Source: Flavobacteriales bacterium (GTDB lineage Bacteria > Bacteroidota > Bacteroidia > Flavobacteriales_D > Sanyastnellaceae). Taken from it: 64,000 nucleotides of DNA. The stretch is from positions 62,001 to 126,000 of the forward strand of contig JAIXWX010000002.1 in assembly GCA_027491075.1 (NCBI GenBank), written 5' to 3'. This document shows, piece after piece, positions 40,359 through 40,750 of the stretch. The first letter of the stretch is position 1. Each line of letters opens with the position of its first letter. The position numbers and the translations under genes were made by a program. The notes under the pieces are model-generated. The model had not been told where the DNA came from and made no database searches. It was given only the letters and a program-made list of their open reading frames with translations.

Positions 40359-40391
40359 TTTGGCCTAATTAAAAAATTATCTCTTCCTTTG
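40359..40391 (+). promoter_or_regulatory. Candidate promoter of the met operon leader
   Basis: TTTG (40359-40362) and TTCCTTTG (40384-40391, one mismatch from TAnnTTTG) are 21 bp apart. A transcript would start near 40398, 15 nt before the first leader-peptide ATG. The AT-rich stretch 40242-40358 between the PaiB gene and this element shows nothing recognisable. Confidence 0.45.
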
Positions 40392-40412
40392 CTCCAGCAA
40401 AAAAGCAAACCC

Positions 40413-40469
40413 ATGTTTCAAATAAAGTGCTGTATGATGTGTTGTCACCCCTCGGATTCCCGAAGGTAG
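40413..40469 (+). CDS. Cys/Met-rich leader peptide 1 of the met operon attenuator
   Basis: An 18-codon ORF encoding MFQIKCCMMCCHPSDSRR, too short for standard gene calling. Six consecutive codons are Cys-Cys-Met-Met-Cys-Cys. Its 3' end contains segment 1 CCTCGG (40450-40455) and segment 2 CCGAAGG (40460-40466), and the stop codon directly follows segment 2. Segment 3 (CCTTCGG, 40510-40516) can pair with segment 2 or with the 3' arm of the terminator. This is the logic of classical translation-coupled attenuation, sensing Cys and Met supply. The second leader 104 bp downstream repeats the design. Confidence 0.85.
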   Translation: MFQIKCCMMCCHPSDSRR

Positions 40470-40504
40470 CATCTCATTATTGCACATTGAAAATGCAAAT
40501 ATTG

Positions 40505-40540
40505 AAAGCCCTTCGGAAATTTTCGAAGGGCTTTTTTTTT
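40505..40540 (+). terminator. Attenuator terminator 1
   Basis: AAAGCCCTTCG / CGAAGGGCTTT, 11-bp stem with 8-nt loop, followed by a run of T (40532-40540). It stands between the two leader peptides and so would stop transcription before leader 2 unless segment 2:3 pairing forms. Confidence 0.9.
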
Positions 40541-40572
40541 AACTATTAAATTCAAAAGAAGAAAGGAAAAAA

Positions 40573-40653
40573 ATGAAAATATCTAATAAACATATGATGT
40601 GCTGCTGCATGTGTTGTCCTCGGAAAAGTCCGAAGGCGTTTGGTTGTGGCTAA
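40573..40653 (+). CDS. Cys/Met-rich leader peptide 2 of the met operon attenuator
   Basis: A 26-codon ORF starting MKISNKH followed by MMCCCMCC, then PRKSPKAFGCG and TAA. It follows a purine-rich ribosome site (AAGAAAGGAAAA). Immediately after the last Cys codon lies segment 1 CCTCGG (40618-40623), then segment 2 CCGAAGG (40630-40636). Segment 3 CCTTCGG is at 40682-40688. The codon region TGTGCTGCT (40598-40606) can also pair with AGCAGCACA (40662-40670). The design repeats that of leader 1 with a different peptide, so conservation is in codon content and RNA pairing. Confidence 0.85.
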   Translation: MKISNKHMMCCCMCCPRKSPKAFGCG

Positions 40654-40676
40654 TCTTTCATAGCAGCACACACACT

Positions 40677-40708
40677 AAAACCCTTCGGAGATTCCGAAGG
40701 GTTTTTTG
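40677..40708 (+). terminator. Attenuator terminator 2
   Basis: AAAACCCTTCGG, 5-nt loop, CCGAAGGGTTTT followed by TT, a 12-bp stem 43 bp before the metY ATG. It is the last barrier before the structural genes. Confidence 0.9.
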
Positions 40709-40750
40709 TTTTCACTAATTCCATCAATTACATATTTAATAATTTACAAA

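Follow-up and report, generated by a model that had tools for sequence, protein, structure and literature searches.

Ribosome-mediated transcription attenuators of the trp and his type operate in Enterobacteria and other bacteria. They resemble the locus described here in having a leader ORF with repeated control codons, a segment common to the antiterminator and the terminator, and an outcome decided by the position at which the ribosome stalls. The locus differs from them in mixing two amino acids in each leader, in carrying two full units in series, in belonging to the Bacteroidota, and in a segment 1 that is non-essential in the model presented below. Polycysteine ORFs of actinobacteria are reportedly leaderless, as the title of Canestrari et al. 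2020 has it.

For actinobacterial cys operons, the available part of one study describes leader ORFs with runs of Cys codons before sulfur genes and, for Mycobacterium, found none of the conserved terminator hairpins (PMC1262725). The likeness lies in the Cys codon runs ahead of sulfur genes; unlike the leaders in that part of the study, those described here have intrinsic terminators with alternative pairing, Met codons and paired units (PMC1262725). Where the actinobacterial type places its Cys run near the stop codon and is terminator-less, the present leaders continue for 7 (unit 1) and 11 (unit 2) more codons after the core, and intrinsic terminators follow. In Rhodobacterales, uORFC-8-2 precedes cysS and has two conserved Cys codons and a terminator-like 3′ end; it serves a tRNA synthetase gene and, in the accessible part of its description, has neither the paired units nor the Met codons seen here (PMC8632094).

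Regulation of cysteine and methionine synthesis in Bacteroidota seems little described. Clues to leader peptides upstream of amino-acid operons have been given for Flavobacterium psychrophilum, in an account that, in its available portion, names no Cys/Met leader and leaves methionine out of the main text (PMC9723704). The literature searched, accessible in part, gave no description of Cys/Met leader attenuators in this phylum; earlier predictions could be contained in Lyubetsky et al. 2014 (Comput Biol Chem 49:7), on sulfur metabolism, and in Lopatovskaya et al. 2010, on how amino acid operons are regulated by attenuation. Nor did it, in the parts available, describe a SAM riboswitch followed by a Cys leader (including PMC7366714, PMC2965389, PMC9373788, PMC4833913, PMC2864571 and PMC13236596). 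Comparison with Rfam, Pfam and NCBIfam yielded no name for these elements. At other Bacteroidota metY genes, the SAM-I riboswitch (RF00162) serves the same gene and the same likely task; its ligand is SAM, whereas charged tRNA is the proposed signal here, and its aptamer is absent from the present operon.

The locus lies in a 64,000-nt stretch of a Flavobacteriales genome (contig JAIXWX010000002.1, positions 62,001 to 126,000), referred to in its entirety as the window. Judged from sequence, two serial ribosome-mediated transcription attenuators very probably sense charged tRNA-Cys and tRNA-Met here and control metY-metX-hom. Paired leaders that mix Cys and Met codons would serve, within the RNA itself, as codon sensors with two inputs.

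Organisation of the metY leader region

All features lie on the + strand, and the genes convert sulfide into homocysteine. The first gene, metY (40751..42100), encodes an O-acetylhomoserine sulfhydrylase matching TIGR01326 at 667.5 bits against a cut-off of 495.1, a family whose name covers O-acetylhomoserine sulfhydrylase and cysteine synthase. It is followed by a metX-like homoserine O-acyltransferase gene (42081..43106), with matches to TIGR01392 (361 bits) and NF001209 (326 bits) that both fall below the curated cut-offs (500 and 331), and by hom, a homoserine dehydrogenase gene (43103..44338) above the cut-off of NF004976 and matching PF00742.

A promoter-like element of the Bacteroidota type (40359..40391), 21 nt 5′ of leader ORF1, consists of TTTG at 40359 and TTCCTTTG at 40384-40391. 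The latter has one mismatch to TAnnTTTG, the second half of what we take to be the Bacteroidota promoter consensus (TTTG / TAnnTTTG), and the exact TAnnTTTG does not occur at 40241-40760. In three loci of the same family, L005, L006 and L009, TTTGGAAAT occurs in the same place upstream of unit 1 and is followed 26 nt later by TATCTTTG or TATATTTG, giving a TTTG / TAnnTTTG pair.

Leader ORF1 (40413..40469) has the translation MFQIKCCMMCCHPSDSRR*. Its control codons (40428..40445) are Cys Cys Met Met Cys Cys, a CCMMCC core, after which come segment 1 (CCTCGG, 40450..40455), a putative protector, and segment 2 (CCGAAGG, 40460..40466), which starts 14 nt after the last Cys codon and can form a 7-pair helix with segment 3 (shuffle-based p 0.01). 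Terminator 1 (40504..40535; 14 pairs, -20.2 kcal/mol) is a strong intrinsic terminator containing segment 3 (CCTTCGG, 40510-40516) and segment 4 (CGAAGGG, from 40524), followed by a T-run. Unit 2 repeats this arrangement. Leader ORF2 (40573..40653), translated as MKISNKHMMCCCMCCPRKSPKAFGCG*, carries the core MMCCCMCC (Met Met Cys Cys Cys Met Cys Cys, 40594..40617), followed by a second putative protector (segment 1, CCTCGG, 40618..40623) and by segment 2 (CCGAAGG, 40630..40636), which begins 11 nt past the final Cys codon of the cluster; here the pairing is between TCCGAAGG and CCTTCGGA (p 0.015 against shuffles). Terminator 2 (40677..40705; 13 pairs, -18.6 kcal/mol), likewise strong, comprises segment 3 (CCTTCGG, 40682-40688), segment 4 (CCGAAGGG, from 40694) and a T-run; a third copy of CCGAAGG lies within it at 40694, and its end is 45 nt from metY.

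In a 2 kb scan, four terminator-like sites were detected against 1.7 expected, the two besides terminators 1 and 2 both being weaker. On folding, none of 200 dinucleotide shuffles matched either window unit (z -5.5 for unit 1, -5.2 for unit 2).

Conservation of the paired units and their alternative pairing

metY was found at E <= 1e-150 in 5 of the 114 genomes of the window's family, and the fifth locus, whose contig ends 17 nt upstream, was left out. The four with upstream sequence (the window, L005, L006 and L009) all carry two Cys/Met leaders in a row with a terminator each, giving intrinsic terminators in 8/8 units. Unit 1 starts MFNSMCHMMCC in L005 and L009, and similarly in L006 and the window; unit 2 is more variable, and leader sequence beyond the Cys/Met core is little conserved. 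The pairing segments differ among the four loci, yet still pair. The initial annotation had claimed two Cys/Met ORFs, each before a terminator, and had read them as trp-type attenuators in tandem, controlled by Cys and Met codons. The ORFs, segments and terminators were all confirmed, the two-unit layout of 4/4 family loci supports the tandem reading, and conservation in close relatives, on which that reading was made to depend, was borne out, with pairing segments that change together. The pair of attenuators is considered real and conserved.

The alternative pairing was examined with a helix test, in which a partner for the terminator 5′ arm was sought between the last clustered Cys codon and the terminator; per-unit shuffles were used because the segments are too different between units for a trustworthy alignment. 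Combined p values were 1.6e-6 for the eight family units, 3.6e-11 for 28 metY units free of a SAM riboswitch (which include the eight) and 9.5e-12 for 24 units at other genes, values that are optimistic because related loci were treated as independent. Taken singly, 5/8 family, 11/28 metY and 10/24 other-gene units reached p <= 0.05, and 3/8 family and 17/28 metY units exceeded it (for example L007, 0.25; L038, 0.46; L153, 0.92).

The 28 metY units contain 26 distinct segment-3 sequences, among them CCTTCGG, ACCCCT, AGGCCTGT, GCCCGG, TCTCAAGT and ACCTCTGT; since pairing is still found across them, it has been kept while the sequence changes. A functionless two-copy repeat was rejected, as the changed segments still pair. 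From the final Cys codon of the cluster to the start of segment 2, the median distance is 12.5 nt for the 28 metY units and 14 nt for the family, roughly as far as a ribosome extends.

Modelled effect of ribosome position on the antiterminator

The ribosome-position model used a fixed footprint: RNA was masked as far as 12 nt beyond the A-site codon's first base, and folding extended to the terminator 3′ arm. The set left out L059 and L064 (copies of L009 and L035; the upstream sequence of L009 is identical to that of L059), L202, L160, an out-of-frame ORF of L006 and terminator-less leaders; the terminator search found none in L008, L024, L028, L055, L109, L154, L200 and L201. For the eight family units, a ribosome placed on the final clustered Cys codon gave a computed antiterminator probability of 0.74-1.0, and one at the stop codon <=0.2, in keeping with the earlier claim that a stalled ribosome frees segment 2. 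The family means were 0.94 (0.58 in shuffles) and 0.07, respectively; the corresponding means were 0.75 (0.57) and 0.18 for the 28 metY units, and 0.88 (0.62) and 0.30 for the 24 other-gene units. Observed values exceeded shuffled ones in all three sets (Wilcoxon p 0.0039, 0.0013 and 1.3e-5, respectively, with related loci counted as independent). The contrast between last Cys codon and stop is partly built in, because a ribosome at the stop leaves a shorter stretch of RNA unmasked; this does not affect the contrast with shuffles. The antiterminator drops within a few codons past the last clustered codon, and a modelled halt on the Met codons likewise frees segment 2.

The initial annotation had also proposed the complete 1:2 / 2:3 / 3:4 logic, of which the competition between 2:3 and 3:4 fits the folding, but 1:2 is not needed in the model. 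Segments 1 and 2 are present as sequence; in folding, 2:3 is still preferred with segment 1 free. A ribosome that has only reached the second codon likewise permits the antiterminator (0.44-1.0), so the model lends little support to a protective 1:2 hairpin and leaves the off state without translation unexplained, unless 1:2 acts kinetically. In full-length RNA at equilibrium, the terminator wins at nearly every stall position, although certain positions in 3/8 family units weaken it, to a minimum of 0.21 in L006 and to 0.55 in unit 2 of the window. Since it mostly wins, the decision must be co-transcriptional and kinetic.

Proposed mechanism

RNA polymerase would start near 40397, and leader 1 would then be translated. 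On a shortage of Cys-tRNA or Met-tRNA, the ribosome is expected to halt on the Cys/Met codons with its leading edge short of segment 2, which would be free to capture segment 3, the terminator 5′ arm, before the 3′ arm is made, allowing the polymerase to pass. With both tRNAs plentiful, a ribosome at the stop codon would cover segment 2 and the terminator would form. Leader 2 would repeat the decision, full expression needing passage of both units, so that transcription would probably pass only if the ribosome runs short of cysteine or methionine.

As halts on Cys and on Met codons should be equivalent in effect, each unit would act as an OR sensor for either shortage, a logic that would suit an enzyme drawing on sulfide and perhaps serving both amino acids. 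The pair would form an AND-like two-step gate, and two terminators in series would multiply readthrough, giving lower leakage and a sharper response.

Cysteine leaders and SAM-I riboswitches at metY genes

The survey of metY drew on overlapping sets from relatives (6/60 genomes), the order (27/399), the class (87/396) and the family (5/114), from three further families, f15 (3/10), f23 (8/64) and f4 (4/8), and from the best 80 named contigs, with E cut-offs of 1e-120 to 1e-150. L004, which is without upstream sequence, was dropped, and 56/57 class metY places were added, one near a contig start being omitted. This gave 196 loci with at least 200 nt upstream, 179 of them non-redundant. A leader was defined as an ORF within 500 nt having at least 5 Cys+Met (at least 2 Cys) in 10 residues. 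Such Cys or Cys/Met leaders are present at 105/179 metY upstream regions, compared with 0.9% of shuffles (20 each) and 2/179 reverse complements; on the contrast with shuffles, chance ORFs were rejected.

SAM-I calls were made with Rfam or, for L143-L203, with a model built from 20 of those aptamers. A SAM-I riboswitch lies upstream of metY at 120/179 non-redundant loci, with a few lying >700 nt away. The initial annotation, which held SAM riboswitches to be the usual expectation, was thus right that they are common at metY, but many have a Cys leader downstream. A leader lies within 500 nt at 77 of the 120 SAM-positive loci (one has two), and the other 43 have none there; among the 59 SAM-free loci, 28 have a leader (15 with two or more) and 31 none. 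Two layouts can be distinguished: SAM-I followed by a poly-Cys leader, mostly terminator-less (77 loci), and Met-richer leaders without a riboswitch, about half of them paired (28), to which the window belongs. An intrinsic terminator lies between the last leader and metY at 8/78 SAM-positive (1.6 expected) and 16/28 SAM-free loci (0.2 expected), expectations being taken from shuffles.

For the 80 SAM-positive loci whose leader lies no more than 260 nt from the aptamer, the distance from aptamer to first in-frame ATG has a median of 8 nt and is 5-13 nt in 70/80, making a composite SAM-plus-cysteine switch possible. An example of an aptamer directly 5′ of a poly-Cys leader ATG before metY is L060 (2630-2891).

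Among Cys/Met residues, the median share of Met is 0.17 for the SAM-positive leaders (78) and 0.5 for the SAM-free ones (45), the latter taken as found with doubtful overlapping ORFs included (Mann-Whitney p 5e-10, with phylogeny uncorrected). Exceptions are the SAM-free poly-Cys leaders of L086, L108, L109 and L154, and the SAM-positive Met-rich leaders of L131, L155, L156 and L163; given these departures from the layout and Met-share pattern, a Met takeover from a lost riboswitch is put forward as a hypothesis. Distant metY homologues (54% identical) in two genomes, G066 (L190) and G624 (L191), are preceded by two tandem Cys/Met leaders; the metY clade of the window is thus not alone in having the paired layout.

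The survey suggests that the window's paired switches are part of a large and seemingly undescribed family of Bacteroidota leader peptides with a sulfur-sensing role. Quite possibly, if short of probably, leader peptides control a sulfur amino acid regulon across the phylum, one form of which, at metY, sets a SAM-I aptamer ~8 nt before a poly-Cys leader, with SAM gating translation of the Cys sensor; elsewhere, as in the window's lineage, the riboswitch would be missing and its Met signal taken over by Met codons, often with a second attenuator in series, an RNA-ligand sensor being swapped for a codon sensor. The apparent exchange of SAM riboswitch and Met codons at one operon offers a way to ask how cells swap kinds of sensor.

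Leaders at other genes and sulfur metabolism in the window genome

ATGATGTGYTGY (Met-Met-Cys-Cys) followed by a T-run was found in 61/396 class genomes, and the reversed control pattern gave 5 among the matches listed. By eye, 24/31 loci read look like leader units with terminators, in other Bacteroidota families: L205, L206, L208, L209, L218-L220, L226-L228, L230 and L234-L246. Dropped were L211, L222, L229, L247, L248 and L250, and also L249, which is leader-like but at a contig end; the remaining pattern matches were left out, as the matched strings looked like coding DNA. Downstream proteins reaching the curated NCBIfam cut-off are ApsK (L234, L235, L236, L239, L240 and L245), CysD with CysN (L234), CysH (L228), MetN (L230) and homoserine dehydrogenase (L227). 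Nitrite/sulfite reductase models are matched, though short of the cut-off, by proteins in L219, L226, L241, L242 and L246, an aldo/keto-reductase-like protein in L238 had no NCBIfam match at 1e-30, and the other downstream genes of the 24 units were named by eye only. Leaders at sulfate-assimilation, hom and metN genes extend one locus to a candidate regulon.

In the window genome, ATGTGYTGY with a T-run occurs at the two metY units and at L141 and L142. Both of the latter were judged by eye to be chance matches, L141 lying inside open frames on both strands and L142 having no recognised sulfur gene downstream. PF01507 (CysD/CysH) has one weak match in this genome, whereas three genomes of the same family, of which two are incomplete, gave no match; 4/5 PF01507 matches in two relatives from the order were examined and had no convincing leader. 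Members of the window's family may be unable to reduce sulfate and rely on sulfur in reduced form.

The only SAM-I match in the window genome (G000:C9:10611-10720, L257) stands before a metH-like gene whose product corresponds to residues 1-340 of methionine synthase MetH. The match stays under the cut-off set for full-length proteins, as a partial one should; with a second ORF after this gene, metH looks split. The genome can thus sense SAM, yet has no such match at metY. SAM-I had no match in four f4 genomes tested, nor in 6/8 f23 genomes tested.

Alternative explanations

The most serious competitor, unlikely but worth keeping in mind, makes cysteine the sole signal, the Met codons being tolerated filler or slowing the ribosome and the second unit a redundant duplicate. 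The leaders of many relatives are almost only Cys, as the SAM-positive median Met share of 0.17 attests, the control-codon cluster of each window unit ends in Cys, and the window leaders' own Met share, 0.33, is below the SAM-free median. Met nevertheless makes up half of the Cys/Met residues in SAM-free leaders (median), Met-Met-Cys-Cys leaders precede metN and hom, and the modelled halt on Met codons frees segment 2 as well.

Cys/Met-rich peptides can bind soft metals, and the ORFs might encode functional peptides of this kind (for example, copper or zinc binding), with the hairpins as ordinary 3′ ends of small peptide transcripts, an arrangement with which the 45 nt between terminator 2 and metY would agree. 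It is very improbable: conservation outside the Cys/Met core is slight, the unit 2 leader and three other leaders tested matched no Pfam or NCBIfam family, the pathway of the downstream genes fits attenuation, the alternative pairing exceeds shuffles, and an exact promoter box of the type given above is absent between unit 1 and metY. A shade more improbable still is control of the operon by a riboswitch, for SAM or some other metabolite, or by a T-box, with incidental ORFs. The frequency of SAM-I at metY (120/179 non-redundant loci) would favour it, but no Rfam family, T-box included, reached its gathering score anywhere in the window, the SAM model built from 20 aptamers found no match there, and the genome's only SAM-I match sits before the metH-like gene; on the Rfam and SAM-model results, a SAM riboswitch or T-box at the metY operon was rejected. 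Serial attenuation responding to charged tRNA-Cys and tRNA-Met is the reading preferred here.

Further elements near metY

In 11/12 f9 loci examined, GGGCC occurs in or near a hairpin loop after the poly-Cys leader, within 130 nt upstream of metY (L014, L016-L018, L021-L023, L025-L027 and L029), and the stem sequence varies by locus; this hairpin is absent from the f9 locus L015 and from two f40 loci, L030 and L031. On a Belliella contig, L077 (1704-1771) has a match to the DUF805 RNA motif near metY.
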